Shown piece by piece: positions 6,424-63,314 of a DNA stretch of 64,000 nucleotides. The position numbers and the translations under genes are program-made. Source of the stretch: Prochlorococcus sp. AG-436-M02 (lineage in GTDB: Bacteria > Cyanobacteriota > Cyanobacteriia > PCC-6307 > Cyanobiaceae); assembly GCA_003212515.1 (NCBI GenBank), contig QCPL01000008.1, positions 1-64,000 on the forward strand, read 5' to 3'. The notes beneath the pieces were generated by a model. That model was not told where the DNA came from, did not search any database, and saw only the letters and a program-made list of their open reading frames with translations. Each line of letters starts with the position of its first letter. The stretch's first letter is position 1.

Positions 6424-8187
6424 ATGAAACTAATAGATTGGCTGATCCTTGCTATTTATTTACTAATTTCGCTAGGTTTAGGTGTTTTCCTTGCGCGTAG
6501 GAATAAGGGTGAAGATGATTATTTTGTCGCTGGTAGAAAGTTGACAGGATGGCTTGCAGGAGCCTCAATGGCGGCAACGACCTTTTCTATAGATACACCA
6601 TTATATGTGGCTGGGTTAGTTGGTACTAGGGGTCTTGCTGGTAATTGGGAGTGGTGGAGCTTTGCATTGGCCCATGTTGCAATGACTGTAGTTTTTGCTC
6701 CTATGTGGAGACGCAGTGGTGTTTTAACCGATGCAGCATTTACTGAATTACGCTATGGGGGATCTGCTGCTGCTTGGTTAAGAGGTACAAAAGCTTTTCT
6801 GCTTGCAGTTCCTATAAATTGCATCGGTATTGGGTACGCATTTCTAGCTCTTAGAAAAGTTGCAGAAGCTCTTGGGATGGTAGATGGACATCAGATATTT
6901 GGTTTATTTAGTGACTCATTGCTCTTGCTTGTAGTAGTTGCTTTTTTTATGCTTGTTTATACAGTCCTAGGTGGTTTGTGGGCAGTTGTTGTTAATGATT
7001 TTGTTCAGTTATTATTAGCACTTTTTGGTGCATTGACTCTTGCTTTTGTAGTTATTCATGAAGCTGGAGGTATGTCGCAATTGCTATCTAGTTTGGAAGA
7101 GCTTCATAGACCTGAATTATTATCAATTTTCCCATGGGTATGGACAGAAGGTCGTTTTGAATGGATTGAGAGTGCGGGTATGAGTACAGCAACTTTTACA
7201 GCATTTCTTTCACTTCAATGGTGGAGCTTCAGAAGGAGTGATGGTGGGGGGGAATTTGTTCAACGTATACTTGCCACTCAGAATGAAAAACAAGCGGAAT
7301 TAGCAGGTTGGGTTTTCTTAGTGATTAACTATCTTTTACGAAGTTGGTTATGGATTTTGGTTGGATTGTCGGCACTTGTTTTAATCCCATTTCAACAAGA
7401 CTGGGAACTTAGTTACCCACTATTAGCGGTTAGGTATCTTCCCCCAGTAGCACTGGGAGTAGTGGTAGTCTCAATGGTCGCTGCATTTATGAGTACTGTA
7501 AGTACTTCTTTGAATTGGGGCTCTAGTTATTTAACGCATGATCTCTACAAGAGGTTTTTACGACCTCAAGCTGGTCAGAAAGAGTTGCTATTAGTTGCTC
7601 AAAGTACCTGTCTATTGCTACTTAGCATTGGAATAATTACTGCATTTTTGAGTGACAGTATTGGTTCTATCTTTCGACTTGTTATAGCTATAGGAACTGG
7701 TCCTGGGGTTGTTCTGGTATTGAGATGGTTTTGGTGGAGAATTAATGCAACAGCTGAGCTTGCAGCTATGTTATGTGGTTTCTTTGTTGGTATGACAACA
7801 TCAGTGATTCCTGTTTTGCGAATTGAAGATTATGGATTAAAACTTTTTTTTACGACGATTTTAACTGCAACAGTTTGGTTGCTTGCTTTGTTAGTAACCC
7901 CCCCTGAATCTGACTATGTTTTAGAGAAATTTGTGCGGATTGTAAAACCTCCCGGTCCTGGTTGGAGTGATTTAAGAAAACGCTTAGGAGTTGAGCCAGT
8001 TGACTCTTTCAGAGAATTGATTGTTCATTTTTTGTTAAGTTCTGGCGTTCTTTTTGGATTGCTTTGTTCAACTGGTGGTTTTTTATTACACCAACAAAGA
8101 GGAGGCTGGCTAGGTTTAATTTGCGCTGTTTTTTGTATTTTGGGGATGAAGAGGAATATCTTAAAAAGAGCTTTTTCTTTGCATTAA
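6424..8187 (+). CDS. Sodium:solute symporter family transporter
   Basis: Multi-TM protein with an N-terminal SSS-family pattern (FFVAGRKLTGWLAGASMAATTFSIDTPLYVAGL). Confidence 0.88.
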   Translation: MKLIDWLILAIYLLISLGLGVFLARRNKGEDDYFVAGRKLTGWLAGASMAATTFSIDTPLYVAGLVGTRGLAGNWEWWSFALAHVAMTVVFAPMWRRSGVLTDAAFTELRYGGSAAAWLRGTKAFLLAVPINCIGIGYAFLALRKVAEALGMVDGHQIFGLFSDSLLLLVVVAFFMLVYTVLGGLWAVVVNDFVQLLLALFGALTLAFVVIHEAGGMSQLLSSLEELHRPELLSIFPWVWTEGRFEWIESAGMSTATFTAFLSLQWWSFRRSDGGGEFVQRILATQNEKQAELAGWVFLVINYLLRSWLWILVGLSALVLIPFQQDWELSYPLLAVRYLPPVALGVVVVSMVAAFMSTVSTSLNWGSSYLTHDLYKRFLRPQAGQKELLLVAQSTCLLLLSIGIITAFLSDSIGSIFRLVIAIGTGPGVVLVLRWFWWRINATAELAAMLCGFFVGMTTSVIPVLRIEDYGLKLFFTTILTATVWLLALLVTPPESDYVLEKFVRIVKPPGPGWSDLRKRLGVEPVDSFRELIVHFLLSSGVLFGLLCSTGGFLLHQQRGGWLGLICAVFCILGMKRNILKRAFSLH

Positions 8188-12330: not shown

Positions 12331-12867
12331 GTGTCACGAAGCTACTATCAACTTCTAGATGTTGCTGAAACTGCTGATTTGCAGACGATTAAGAAAGCAT
12401 TTCATCGTTTAAGTAAAATCTTGCATCCGGACACAACTGTGCTCCCTGCAAATGAAGCTGCAAAGGAATTCCATCAAGTTTGTGAGGCCTATGAAATTTT
12501 GTCGGATCCGATTAGCAGGGCAAAGTATAACAATATTCTTAAGGAGGTAAGGAGTGAGTATGACTGCTATAGCACTAAATTAAATGTGGATATGAACTTC
12601 TATTCGAAGATAAATGTGAACGATGGGAATCGACGACCATTGTCTGGAGGGGAATTCCTTTCCTTAATTCTTTTAGGTATCGCACTTTGTATTAGCTTAT
12701 TGTTAGGAATTATATTTGCTTTGTTAGATGACAGGGATCTTTACGTAGCTCCAAGTTGGCTTAATTCAAGCAATTCAATTGTTAATGAAAGTCTTTACAA
12801 AAATAGAAATGCCGACTCTTCCTCCAGCCAAGACACCATTGAATCAACATTCCTTGCAGGCCATTGA
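12331..12867 (+). CDS. DnaJ-domain membrane protein (GTG start assumed; the ORF track extends to 12289)
   Basis: SRSYYQLLDVAETADLQTIKKAFHRLSKILHPD J-domain with HPD; C-terminal TM segment. Confidence 0.88.
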   Translation: MSRSYYQLLDVAETADLQTIKKAFHRLSKILHPDTTVLPANEAAKEFHQVCEAYEILSDPISRAKYNNILKEVRSEYDCYSTKLNVDMNFYSKINVNDGNRRPLSGGEFLSLILLGIALCISLLLGIIFALLDDRDLYVAPSWLNSSNSIVNESLYKNRNADSSSSQDTIESTFLAGH

Positions 12868-49721: not shown

Positions 49722-49753
49722 AAAAAGACTGGGCACAAGCCTAGTCTTTTTTA
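49722..49753 (+). terminator. Rho-independent terminator downstream of groESL
   Basis: AAAAAGACTGGGC-acaa-GCCTAGTCTTTTTT: 13-position stem with one G:T wobble, ending in a T-run, 35 nt after the groL stop. Confidence 0.88.
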
Positions 49754-55739: not shown

Positions 55740-56207
55740 TCAATTCTCTAGTGACTGAATTATTTGCATGGCAATATTTAAATGTATTGGCATTATAGAT
55801 AATCTATTGCCTTTTCTAATTAGAATCAATTCACTTCCTTTAAAACTCTCATTAATTTCATTAAGACTAAGTAACTTATTAAATTTTTTTATATATTTAA
55901 GCTTTGCACAATCCCAACGAGGGCTTTCTTTTTTTGACTTACTGTCAAAGTAATTTGATTTTTTATCAAATTGGGTTGGATCAATTAAATTAGTCTCAAT
56001 TACTTCCATTAGTCCCGTTATCCCAGGGGGTTTACAGTTTGAGTGATAAAAGAAAACTTGGTCACCGATTTTCATTTTTCTCATAAAATTTCTCGCTTGA
56101 TAATTTCTAATACCATCCCAAAGAGTTGTTCCTTCATTCTTTAGGTCGTCTATGCTATAAACATTTGGCTCGCTCTTCATTAGCCAAAACCTAGTTTCTT
56201 CAGTCAT
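55740..56207 (-). CDS. EVE-domain protein
   Basis: FWLMKSEPNVYSIDDLKNEGTTLWDGIRNYQARNFMRKMKIGDQVFFYHSNCKPPGITGLMEV. Confidence 0.92.
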   Translation of the reverse strand: MTEETRFWLMKSEPNVYSIDDLKNEGTTLWDGIRNYQARNFMRKMKIGDQVFFYHSNCKPPGITGLMEVIETNLIDPTQFDKKSNYFDSKSKKESPRWDCAKLKYIKKFNKLLSLNEINESFKGSELILIRKGNRLSIMPIHLNIAMQIIQSLEN

Positions 56208-56331
56208 AGCAAGGGATCTCGGCGTTTAATTGTGATACTTTGAGGCTGTTCTCGGTGTTGAAACCTAGGAATTGCCTGCATTCTCTTATCTATTCTTACT
56301 CAATTATATGGTTTGTGCTTTTAGTTGATCC

Positions 56332-56394: not shown

Positions 56395-57522
56395 TCAGTC
56401 AACAGTGTAGGCATGAGAATCATAAATCCCTTTTTTTGAATTTTCTGGCGAATCTACACTTTCTTCTTTTATTTTCTCTTTTATGATCCAAGCAAGATAA
56501 TCTTTTTTCACCTGCATATATCCACCATTGCTAGAAATGCGTTTTACTAAACCATAGCCACCTTTAATTGATGAAATTTCTTCTAATGTAGGTAGTGACA
56601 TTTCATGAAATTTAGGCTTATTGCTTTTAAGGAATTTTCTTATTTCTTGAAGGATTTTCTTTTTGCTATCTTCCATTACTTTCCTAATTAGATCTATATA
56701 GTCTTTTTGATGAAGAGATAACATTGCATCTCTTAATTCTTTTGCAGCATTAAGTAATGAATCCCAAACCTTATTTTCATTACTAAGCTTTGGCATGATT
56801 CCTTTTTTCTCAATAGATGATTTTGTCTGCTCATAATATTTGTCAAATAAATCTTCTATGTAGCTTTCGATATTTTTACCTTCAATTACAGGGTTCTCCT
56901 TAGCTTCTTTACTATTTTCAAGAGGTATCAACTTTGGTTTGCAGTTAAATTTCTCAGCTAGTTTCATATTGATGAACATATGAAAAATATCTTTTGAACG
57001 ATTATTGCTGGTTTGCATTTCTTTAATAACAAGATCATGGTAGGTATCCAATGGTTTTAATTTTCCATGTACATCACTCTTTTCAATTTTCATTGAGACG
57101 TCATCTCTTTCTCTAAGAACTTTTTCAACATTTTCGTTAAAAAGTAGAAAACCACTTTCATTAGTCCAGGGTAGGTTTGCAGTAAGTTTCTGGTTAACTA
57201 TTGGCAAAATGTCGAGAAAAGTTGCTCTTTCCTTTTGTCCTTGATTATTGGTCTTTTCTATACCAAATAACTTTGAAAAGATATCTATAGCTTTTGAATT
57301 ATCAATTTGCTCTATCAACGTATTTATAAGCATTGAGCCTACTTCTGCGCCTTTAGCTCCTTTCAATCCTGAGTAAAGGATTAGAGCATCTAACAGCTTG
57401 TTTCGAATAAGAGAGGAACAAGCAACTAACTCGTCAATATTTTCTTCGACAGTCTTCTGCTCTAACTCTGAGAAATCAAGGTAGTACTTATCTGACCTGT
57501 GACTATCCAAAGTCATTTCCAA
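56395..57522 (-). CDS. Hypothetical protein, no recognised domain
   Basis: 375-aa uninterrupted ORF, highly charged, helix-rich composition. Confidence 0.78.
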   Translation of the reverse strand: MEMTLDSHRSDKYYLDFSELEQKTVEENIDELVACSSLIRNKLLDALILYSGLKGAKGAEVGSMLINTLIEQIDNSKAIDIFSKLFGIEKTNNQGQKERATFLDILPIVNQKLTANLPWTNESGFLLFNENVEKVLRERDDVSMKIEKSDVHGKLKPLDTYHDLVIKEMQTSNNRSKDIFHMFINMKLAEKFNCKPKLIPLENSKEAKENPVIEGKNIESYIEDLFDKYYEQTKSSIEKKGIMPKLSNENKVWDSLLNAAKELRDAMLSLHQKDYIDLIRKVMEDSKKKILQEIRKFLKSNKPKFHEMSLPTLEEISSIKGGYGLVKRISSNGGYMQVKKDYLAWIIKEKIKEESVDSPENSKKGIYDSHAYTVD

Positions 57523-57690
57523 TAAAATCTCTGAATACCTGCAAATATAGCAAAAATAATAGTCTTTGTTGATTTTCTTAACAATAAATATAGTAGTTAC
57601 ACCAGGCAGTTAGAGGAATCTTGATTTCAAGGAAAAGTATATCTCAGATTTTTTAGACCAATAGGTCTCTTTTCTGCTAGCTTGCTTTTA

Positions 57691-57768
57691 TCTCTGCTTG
57701 AGCTCGCTTGCGAGCATTAAAAAGATCCATGAAGCTGACACTTCATGGATCTAGCCCGAAGGCAGAGA
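57691..57768. ncRNA. Strongly structured element: nested inverted repeats; on the minus strand the main hairpin ends in TTTTT (terminator/attenuator or small-RNA 3' end)
   Basis: TCTCTGC...GCAGAGA outer arms; GCTCGCTTGCGAGC; AGATCCATGAAG-ctgaca-CTTCATGGATCT perfect 12-bp stem; on the minus strand ...CTTCATGGATCTTTTTAATG. Confidence 0.6.
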
Positions 57769-58127
57769 ACACACTCTAAAAGTCATCCTCATGACCTACA
57801 ACATGGCATTAAGTCATCCTTTAGTCAAAAAGATTAAGGGAAATTCGAAACTTTCCTTAGAGGATTGTGTTCCGAATTGTATAACTGAATTTCAGTCAGC
57901 AACGAATTTCGCAAAAACCTCTAGAAGTTTGAATCAACTTCATTATTGGTATCTGCATTGGTCAAGGTCACCACACAACGATTTAGGAGGCTGTTAAATC
58001 TTTATTTTTTTGTGAGAACTTTAAATGGCAAGGATTCTAGATGTAACTCATTCTTGTCTTGCCTGCATAAGGCAGTTCAAAGGGAAAAGAGGTTTAGCAA
58101 ATTTATTAATTTTATTAATTCAAACAA

Positions 58128-58559
58128 ATGTCATTTTTTAAACAACCTTCATTAGTTGAGAACGTTGATGGTCATAGCGCTATAGCTATTGCCCCAATCT
58201 ATCCTGCGGGAGAAGGAATTATTTTCTCTGCAATCATTCCACTTCACCCAACTATTCAGAAAGTTTGGTGTCCGCCTGACTTAACTATTAATGCAAATAA
58301 GACCCTTATTGTCCTGGCTAATCCGGGGGCTACTGGTTTAAATCCAGTCGTAAGATCTATTGTCACTCCTGTAGAGGAGGCTTTTATTGCAAAAATGCTT
58401 CTTTTAAGAGATGGATGTTTAGCTAAAGAACATGGGGTTAGCATCGATGATAAATATTTTCAGTTAGATCTATTTGTCTCAGCTTTTGAATCCCTTGATG
58501 GAACTTGTTCGTTATCAGAAGATAAACATCTTAAAACACCTACACTAAATGAGGCGTAA
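58128..58559 (+). CDS. Hypothetical cyanobacterial protein
   Basis: 143 aa, protein-like composition (GHSAIAIAPIYPAGEGIIFSAIIPLHPTIQKVWCPPDLTINANKTLIVLANPGATGLNPVVRSI). Confidence 0.7.
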   Translation: MSFFKQPSLVENVDGHSAIAIAPIYPAGEGIIFSAIIPLHPTIQKVWCPPDLTINANKTLIVLANPGATGLNPVVRSIVTPVEEAFIAKMLLLRDGCLAKEHGVSIDDKYFQLDLFVSAFESLDGTCSLSEDKHLKTPTLNEA

Positions 58560-58564
58560 ATGAT

Positions 58565-58804
58565 ATGAGAGAGATTAAATCATTTTTTGAAGTCTTCTAT
58601 TCGTTCAGATCGTCAGTTTGGCATCGTCTTTTCAAGAATGAGAAAAGAATCTATAAACTTGAGAAGGACATCTCTATTCTAGAAGACAAAATTAGGGGCT
58701 TAGAAGTTGTTTTCATTGATATCCCAGCAGAAATCGCTGCAGATATGCAAATTGCTTCAGGCCAAATGGGATATTCATCAGTTAATGAAGAGGAGCTTTC
58801 CTGA
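58565..58804 (+). CDS. Small hypothetical protein with coiled-coil-like segment
   Basis: 79 aa; KNEKRIYKLEKDISILEDKIRGLEVVF; follows the previous gene by a few bases and its TGA overlaps the next ATG. Confidence 0.62.
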   Translation: MREIKSFFEVFYSFRSSVWHRLFKNEKRIYKLEKDISILEDKIRGLEVVFIDIPAEIAADMQIASGQMGYSSVNEEELS

Positions 58805-59010
58805 TGTCAAACAATTTGAAAACGTTTAATCTTATGCAAGAACTGATTGAGGAGGCTTTATTGCCGGTAAGAATTAAAAGGAAGGTAAAGATAGAAAGAG
58901 TTAAGGTTTTTATCTTCACTGACCTAGGTTCCCTATTTAACTTAATGCAATGCAATTATAGCACTATTTTAATCTCACATAAACCAGTAAAGATCTCGAC
59001 TTTATTATAG
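58804..59010 (+). CDS. Small hypothetical protein
   Basis: 68 aa; ATG overlaps the previous stop (TGATG). Confidence 0.45.
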   Translation: MSNNLKTFNLMQELIEEALLPVRIKRKVKIERVKVFIFTDLGSLFNLMQCNYSTILISHKPVKISTLL

Positions 59011-60941: not shown

Positions 60942-61937
60942 TTAACTTTTAGTCCATATTCTTCTATTTAAATTAAGGTCTTGAATAATTCCACATGCCA
61001 TATCAATGTCTTCAAAGAAATTATCAACTAGATTTTTTTCTAGATATGAGCTGAATATTTTAGTTTCAAACATATCTGGGTAATGAGAAAGAGCGATATA
61101 TATATTACTGCCTTTAAATGAAATATAAGTATCTTTTCCAGTCTTTTCCTTAAAAGCTACAAGGTTTTCCATTAGCTTAGGAGTAATAATATATCTTGCT
61201 TCATTTTGATTGTATCCATATACTTTAAAAAGCTTCTCAAACTTTTGATTCTCTAGATTGATTAATTCTGTCCCACTTACAGCAGGAAGCTTTTGAAATA
61301 TTTTTGCAATACCTCCGATTGAGCCTTCCCAATTGTCGGGTAAAATAATAGTTAGACCATTAATATTTTTGTTGAAGTCCGCAACAAAGAAAAAACCTTT
61401 AAATAATCTATGCCACTTTATTTCAATACGGCCATTTTTCTTTTTCCTTCTCGTCTTATACTCTGCATTGATTTCGCTAAACTCAAATGATGTCTGATCT
61501 AAGTTTCCCTGAATGTGGTCTTCTCCAGTGAATCGATCTATTTTACAAATATCTTTTCCCCATTCCCTAGAAGAAAAGAATAGATTACTTTCTTTGAAAT
61601 ATTTGCTACTTATGTGTCCTGAATGATTATATTCTAAGCTACTATCAAAGAAAGTAGCTATTTTAGGAATTACCTTTTTCTTGAATTCTAAATTTAAATT
61701 CTCAGATACACTCCTGTAGTATATTATGATAATAAGCAATAGTATTGTTAATATTATAAATAGGATTATTGATTTGCTTGCTAATGAGATTATAAATAAA
61801 GTTAAAAATATTAGAATTGTGAGAAGTATTTTTTTACATGTAGTTACTCTTTTCTTTTCTAATTGCCTCAGATTTGGCAGAAGATACTTCTTATAATATG
61901 ACTCTTTGTCTTGAGAAAAATCTGATTTAGTATTCAT
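60942..61937 (-). CDS. DUF3137-like membrane protein (start at MNTKSDF; the ORF track extends to 61940)
   Basis: N-terminal TM pair, then DRFTGEDHIQGNLDQTSFEFSEINAEYKTRRKKKNG...FKGFFFVADFNKNINGLTIILPD, typical of DUF3137; adjacent to lemA. Confidence 0.8.
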   Translation of the reverse strand: MNTKSDFSQDKESYYKKYLLPNLRQLEKKRVTTCKKILLTILIFLTLFIISLASKSIILFIILTILLLIIIIYYRSVSENLNLEFKKKVIPKIATFFDSSLEYNHSGHISSKYFKESNLFFSSREWGKDICKIDRFTGEDHIQGNLDQTSFEFSEINAEYKTRRKKKNGRIEIKWHRLFKGFFFVADFNKNINGLTIILPDNWEGSIGGIAKIFQKLPAVSGTELINLENQKFEKLFKVYGYNQNEARYIITPKLMENLVAFKEKTGKDTYISFKGSNIYIALSHYPDMFETKIFSSYLEKNLVDNFFEDIDMACGIIQDLNLNRRIWTKS

Positions 61938-62484
61938 CAATTTTCAAAAATATCTCCAATATCTGGGTTTTCCTTTTTAAAATCAGGTACTTCAAAAAAT
62001 ACCTTGGTTTTGAAGTTGAAAATTAAAGCAATAATGTTAGTTGGGAACATTTGAACAGCGGCATTATATTCAGCTGTAATTGCATTAAAGGTTCTTCTTG
62101 CTGCTGAAAGTTGTTCTTCTACCTCGTTTTCAGATTTCTGTAGTTCGAGGAAATTCTGACTTGCTTTTAGTTCTGGATAATTTTCTACAGCCACCATGAT
62201 GGATCCTAATGTTCTTGTTAATCCGTTCTCTAATGCAACTTGGCTTTCAGTGGCCTTAGATGTTTTGAATGATTGTGAACGGGATTCAGCAATTCGTATC
62301 AAAGTATCTGCTTCATGATTCATGTAACCTTTACCATTTTTGCAAGATCTGGGATTAAGTCATATCTTTTACTTAATTGAACCTCAATGTTCGAAAAAGC
62401 GTTGTCTACCTTTGCTTTCTTATTTACGAGGTAATTGTAAATCAATATTATTGCAATTACTATACAAATTAGTATTGCTCTCAT
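61937..62484 (-). pseudogene. lemA: LemA family protein split by an apparent 1-nt deletion (5' ORF 62320-62484, 3' ORF 61937-62323)
   Basis: 5' ORF MRAILICIVIAIILIYNYLVNKKAKVDNAFSNIEVQLSKRYDLIPDLAKMVKVT*; 3' ORF MNHEADTLIRIAESRSQ... Adding one G to GTAAAGGTTACATGAATCATGAA gives the continuous LemA sequence KMVKGYMNHEADTL. Confidence 0.85.
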
Positions 62485-62764
62485 GTCTGAAGTGCTTGCT
62501 CTAATTAATCTACCATTTTTAAATGCAATCCTTTTGCAGGGTTATGTTTACTTTAACGTAATAAACTAACTATTAATTTATACAGTATAAATAGGGATTT
62601 TGAGGCAGAACCTTTAGATATCGATTAGGGGTGGGGTGTCTTTGGGATATACAGATGGAGCTTTCGTGATGTGGTTCATTATGAAAATAGGGCCGTCTCT
62701 TTAGTGAAAACAATAACTTTTAAAATCAAAAGCAAGCTAATTTTTGTTATACCTGAGACTACAA

Positions 62765-62936
62765 ATGGCCATCGACTCTGAAGTGATCCCACCAGCAAGT
62801 CCTGAAGGATATGGCTCTGTGCGTTTTGGTCCTAAGTGGGCTTTCTTTCTACCTTGCAATAACACTTGGTGTATTCGGATTAATTGTAATCTTTAAAGAG
62901 CTTCTTCCTTTGATTGTGATTCTAGTCAGCCTATAG
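62765..62936 (+). pseudogene. Small membrane-protein gene split by an apparent 1-nt insertion
   Basis: Frame 1: MAIDSEVIPPASPEGYGSVRFGPKWAFFL. Removing one C at 62852-62853 continues it as LAITLGVFGLIVIFKELLPLIVILVSL* (TAG at 62934-62936). Confidence 0.6.
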
Positions 62937-63314
62937 TTGAACAACTACTGCATTGGTTATCTTCTTCCCGTACGCAATATCAGTAATTTCTTTCTTTCGT
63001 TTCCTTATCTCTACCCGTTCCTAGGTGTCCATGTTGTCTTAACGCTATTGCCACATGTACTAGCTAACAAGAGGATATCAGTTCCTTTCATTAAGTGATT
63101 TTCAATGAAGGTTGATCGTAATAAATACAAGGTATAAGGATGATCTGAGAACTTATGACCTTTTAATTTTCCTTAATCCATAAACTTATCAACTGCCCCT
63201 CTCCAATGCTGTTGGATCTTTCATTGATTCGCTTGCTTCATCTCATTCTCTATGAAGTACATCCATCGCTTAAAGACATAACTGACATGTTTCAAGACCA
63301 GCATAAATGATCTT

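Follow-up and report, generated by a model that had tools for sequence, protein, structure and literature searches.

The hairpin element at 57691-57768, located upstream of a gene without relatives, raises the question of whether it belongs to an RNA and, if so, from which strand that RNA would be transcribed and where it would end. The window, i.e. the whole stretch of 64 kb that was analysed, stems from a Prochlorococcus genome of 1.5 Mb (83% complete, 53 contigs). An earlier note, made from the letters of the window, had proposed either a leader attenuator or a small RNA (sRNA) on the minus strand whose 3' end the hairpin would form; of these, the second, with the hairpin as terminator, proved to be best supported, whereas the case for a leader attenuator is weak. 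The letters and coordinates given for the element were all correct on re-check (Table 1). Read on the minus strand, its main hairpin comprises 13 bp, a U-G pair closing the UGUCAG apex, and is followed by TTTTAATG. The T-run described beside the stem does contain five Ts, but only four of them lie outside the stem, the first T being the last stem base.

Table 1. Positions of the hairpin element, its parts and features discussed in the text (window coordinates unless a genome is named).
Feature	Position	Strand	Remark
5' outer arm, plus-strand three-way junction	57691..57699	+	9 bp including one U-G pair; core TCTCTGC 57691-57697
Small hairpin GCUCG-CUUG-CGAGC, letters GCTCGCTTGCGAGC	57702..57715	+	5 bp; loop CUUG (+), CAAG (-)
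U-tract/tail TTTTAAT, directly 3' of stem; predicted transcript 3' end	57716..57722	-	
Putative terminator stem, perfect 12-bp hairpin	57723..57752	-	13 bp on minus strand with U-G apex pair
3' outer arm, plus-strand three-way junction	57760..57768	+	core GCAGAGA 57762-57768
ORFan, 375 aa, downstream of hairpin	56395..57522	-	no relative found
Best promoter-like -10, TATATT, TG-extended, just ahead of ORF 56395	57544..57549	-	consensus match only
Copies of the sequence upstream of the EVE-domain gene	L064:6189-6278, 7560-7657; L055:10298-10391, 12707-12800		

The element exceeds chance expectation, because it holds the top folding rank of the window and combines a 12-bp hairpin with a T-tail in a way that is absent from shuffled sequence. 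Folding both strands, a check that had been suggested earlier, revealed strong structure of about -37 kcal/mol on each: the 91-nt element folds at -37.0 kcal/mol on the plus strand (z = -5.74) and at -36.8 kcal/mol on the minus strand (z = -5.33), and none of 200 shuffles folded equally well. In a scan of the 64-kb stretch with 90-nt segments (step 30, both strands, 40 dinucleotide shuffles per segment), it ranked first of 4262 by energy as well as by z, with z = -7.57 on the plus versus -5.18 on the minus strand. The window contains three perfect 12-bp hairpins versus 0.03 expected from Markov shuffles; only the one at 57723-57752 bears a T-tail, and the combination was found in 0 of 100 Markov-shuffled copies of the window. 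The outer arms and the small hairpin are weakly supported beyond the 12-bp hairpin, with modest significance and on the plus strand only: when the 12-bp hairpin was held fixed and the flanks alone were shuffled (n = 2000 per strand), 27 versions folded at least as well on the plus strand and 318 on the minus strand.

The minus-strand layout is that of an intrinsic terminator, as the earlier note had recognised. Scoring every hairpin with a T-tract after it, with the groEL terminator as positive control, we recovered the latter 37 nt after groEL (49724-49749, -15.8 kcal/mol) and obtained the hairpin as the top-scoring terminator-like site of the 64-kb window (-19.3 kcal/mol, tail score 3.38). 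A tail of this score is within the top 1.2% of window positions, tails this good being found at about 1-2% of positions. Intrinsic terminators have a stem of about 5-15 bp with a short loop and a U-tract immediately 3' of the stem; here, a stem of 13 bp with a 4-nt loop (-19.3 kcal/mol) is directly followed by TTTTAAT. A survey of 243 kb from this and related genomes found few sites this strong, most of which follow a co-oriented ORF or mirror a site that does. At this locus, no minus-strand ORF of at least 60 aa ends within 300 nt upstream of the hairpin, in agreement with the earlier statement that no minus-strand gene just upstream needs terminating.

An orphan terminator is accepted as an indicator of an sRNA gene (PMC2573895). 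Since there is no minus-strand gene close upstream, the site is most likely the 3' end of a separate short non-coding RNA (ncRNA), and we favour, with about as much doubt as confidence, an orphan Rho-independent terminator at 57752-57716 that would end a short lineage-specific minus-strand ncRNA. The candidate would be roughly 50-300 nt long, starting somewhere in the intergenic 57770-58130, and may have a regulatory role. RNA polymerase would stop once the hairpin forms behind the U-tract, and the hairpin, kept on the RNA, would shield its 3' end. By consensus match, however, minus-strand promoter candidates in 57760-58400 are weak, with scores of at most 9 of 12, and the surrounding 1 kb contains five promoter-like sites versus 2.9 (sd 1.7) expected by chance. 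The lack of a clear minus-strand promoter, together with that of a homologue, weakens the sRNA reading. Furthermore, a terminator leaves the small hairpin and the outer arm that is 3' on the minus strand unexplained, because both lie beyond the predicted minus-strand 3' end.

The earlier claim that no known family accounts for the element was borne out. In the window, no Rfam 15 covariance model (6S, tmRNA, SRP and others) reached its gathering score, and a relaxed search of 57500-58200 at E<5 returned a single match (E 2.9) that was judged to be chance; neither tRNA nor tmRNA genes were detected in the 64 kb. DNA searches found nothing in 60 relatives and, in 300 family genomes, short matches only (18 genomes at E<=0.1), which were no commoner than chance and showed no similar structure when folded in their context. 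The best of them, in L006, agrees at 29 of 34 bases with the left arm and small hairpin, and the 12-bp hairpin is missing there. An exact match to the stem pattern in one archaeal metagenome-assembled genome was taken as chance; the pattern was found in 0 of 385 other genomes sampled of the phylum. A covariance model of the element matched only itself among 201 family genomes, and the phage, plasmid and viral collections yielded no homologue. We also considered a repeat or MITE and rejected it, as the element is single-copy in its genome and no such repeat is nearby. Conserved relatives with compensatory changes, a supporting rather than strictly defining criterion for an sRNA, were thus not found; the missing homologues are compatible with a lineage-specific RNA and do not exclude one.

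Judged by gene order and content, the element is within a variable genomic island beside a conserved EVE-domain gene. In the relatives inspected, both the genes and their order are conserved up to the EVE-domain protein (55740-56207), with the DUF2811 gene absent in one or two, and beyond it gene content differs between genomes; the element lies in the variable part. The description of the downstream minus-strand gene as an ORFan stood up: searches of 201 family genomes, viral contigs, phages, Pfam and PHROGs found no relative of ORF 56395. A weak BrxC match of this ORF (E 2.5e-5, about 75 residues of a 1172-position profile) is probably chance and due to helical sequence. The plus-strand ORFs 57791 and 58128 are likewise without relatives in the genomes searched or the collections tried for each, and phages, viral contigs and PHROGs gave no indication that ORFs 56395 and 58128 are of phage origin. 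At 58128-59010, three consecutive plus-strand ORFs (143, 79 and 68 aa) look like a small operon, because the last two overlap by one base; no relative was found for the first and none in phages for the second, and for the third the search covered Pfam. A LemA-family protein and a DUF3137 protein are encoded next to each other on the minus strand within the island (60942-62323).

Several further features were observed at and near the island. Conservation extends into the sequence directly upstream of the EVE-domain gene, over 56208-56294 and, in one relative, as far as 56376. In two relatives, the variable region contains copies of this sequence along with the first EVE codons (Table 1), a pattern expected if the 5' end of the EVE gene served as an island boundary or integration point that had been duplicated repeatedly. 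The region 62559-63282, farther along the island and without a long ORF, is in parts 82-83% identical to DNA beyond the EVE gene in L054, L059, L061 and L062; the genes around these counterparts differ between genomes, and the region has no phage match and nothing credible in Rfam. Next to the element, at 57779-57820, a dyad GTCAT-CCTC-ATGAC and a direct repeat AAGTCATCCT about 30 bp away appear operator-like. Very strong hairpins at L056:1858-1892 and L057:1556-1599, each lying between the equivalents of ORF 54713 and of the DUF2811 gene in these relatives, are probably terminators of upstream genes.

The element might instead act on the plus strand as a structured RNA, in which a 9-bp closing stem, the CUUG-loop hairpin and the 12-bp hairpin form a three-way junction that serves as an sRNA or as the 5' leader of ORF 57791 or 58128. 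We regard this as unlikely, although it accounts for all parts including the outer-stem U-G pair and the CUUG loop, and although z is more extreme on the plus than on the minus strand in both fold tests. The flank shuffles with the hairpin fixed point the same way on the plus strand, but the gains are modest and post hoc, so that the three-way junction raised in the earlier note stands as a plausible plus-strand fold with little evidence beyond the hairpin itself. In addition, the T-tail on the opposite strand would have to be a coincidence, no strong plus-strand promoter (best score 8) and no terminator beyond the junction were seen on that strand, and both ORFs are without homologue in the genomes searched. 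The junction competes with a minus-strand terminator, because an efficient stop at 57752-57716 would end the RNA before 57715-57702 and 57697-57691. More far-reaching versions, either a plus-strand junction RNA regulating island genes as a new class with a single member or a lineage-specific regulatory RNA paired with ORFan 56395, are highly improbable.

There is a small chance that the hairpin is a leader attenuator, terminating conditionally ahead of ORF 56395. Strand and order fit, since the hairpin lies on the same strand about 170-230 nt upstream of the ORF, as had been described. The probability of an attenuator is nevertheless lowered by the position of the best promoter-like site for ORF 56395, downstream of the hairpin and between it and the gene. 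Local folding revealed no alternative antiterminator pairing, the short minus-strand ORFs listed upstream carry no leader-peptide signature, and Rfam added no aptamer; the outer arm at 57691-57697 again lies beyond the terminator.

Slightly more doubtful still is a terminator that blocks antisense read-through from distant minus-strand genes (59015 and beyond) or insulates neighbouring units, with no separate sRNA. The minus-strand genes from 62323 to 59015 do point toward the hairpin, but 1.26 kb and three plus-strand ORFs separate the end of the nearest one from the hairpin. Finally, there is a very slim chance that the inverted repeat acts in DNA rather than RNA, as an operator, a recombination site or the decayed end of a mobile element: its symmetry on both strands and position in a variable island would suit, but it is unique in the genome and absent from every collection searched, neither Pfam nor PHROGs revealed a transposase or integrase among the neighbouring proteins, and the T-tail is a feature of transcription.

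If the favoured minus-strand ncRNA is transcribed, it would join the lineage-specific sRNAs whose clustering in hypervariable islands of streamlined marine cyanobacteria is known, and orphan terminators could locate such RNAs where conservation-based methods cannot work; if it is not, the locus amounts to one orphan terminator and has little general interest.

Compared with known systems, the element resembles intrinsic terminators such as that of groEL in its stable stem, short loop and T-tract directly after the stem, but it is stronger than the groEL terminator and has no co-oriented gene just upstream. With transcription attenuators it shares a terminator upstream of a co-oriented gene, whereas no leader peptide, aptamer or antiterminator was found and the promoter-like site is downstream of the hairpin. 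In Prochlorococcus MED4, verified ncRNAs cluster in genomic islands, which hold nine of the 21; several are oriented opposite to a neighbour, some to both neighbours, and some are without known homologue (PMC2518516). Like Yfr8-Yfr21 described there, the candidate would be short, intergenic, placed in an island, opposite to a neighbour and of limited conservation; unlike them, it is a prediction from sequence, has no conserved relative at all and shows no sequence relation to them (no Rfam match). By analogy, it would fit the MED4 island-ncRNA pattern, although outside every described family, and makes a reasonable, otherwise ordinary, sRNA candidate.
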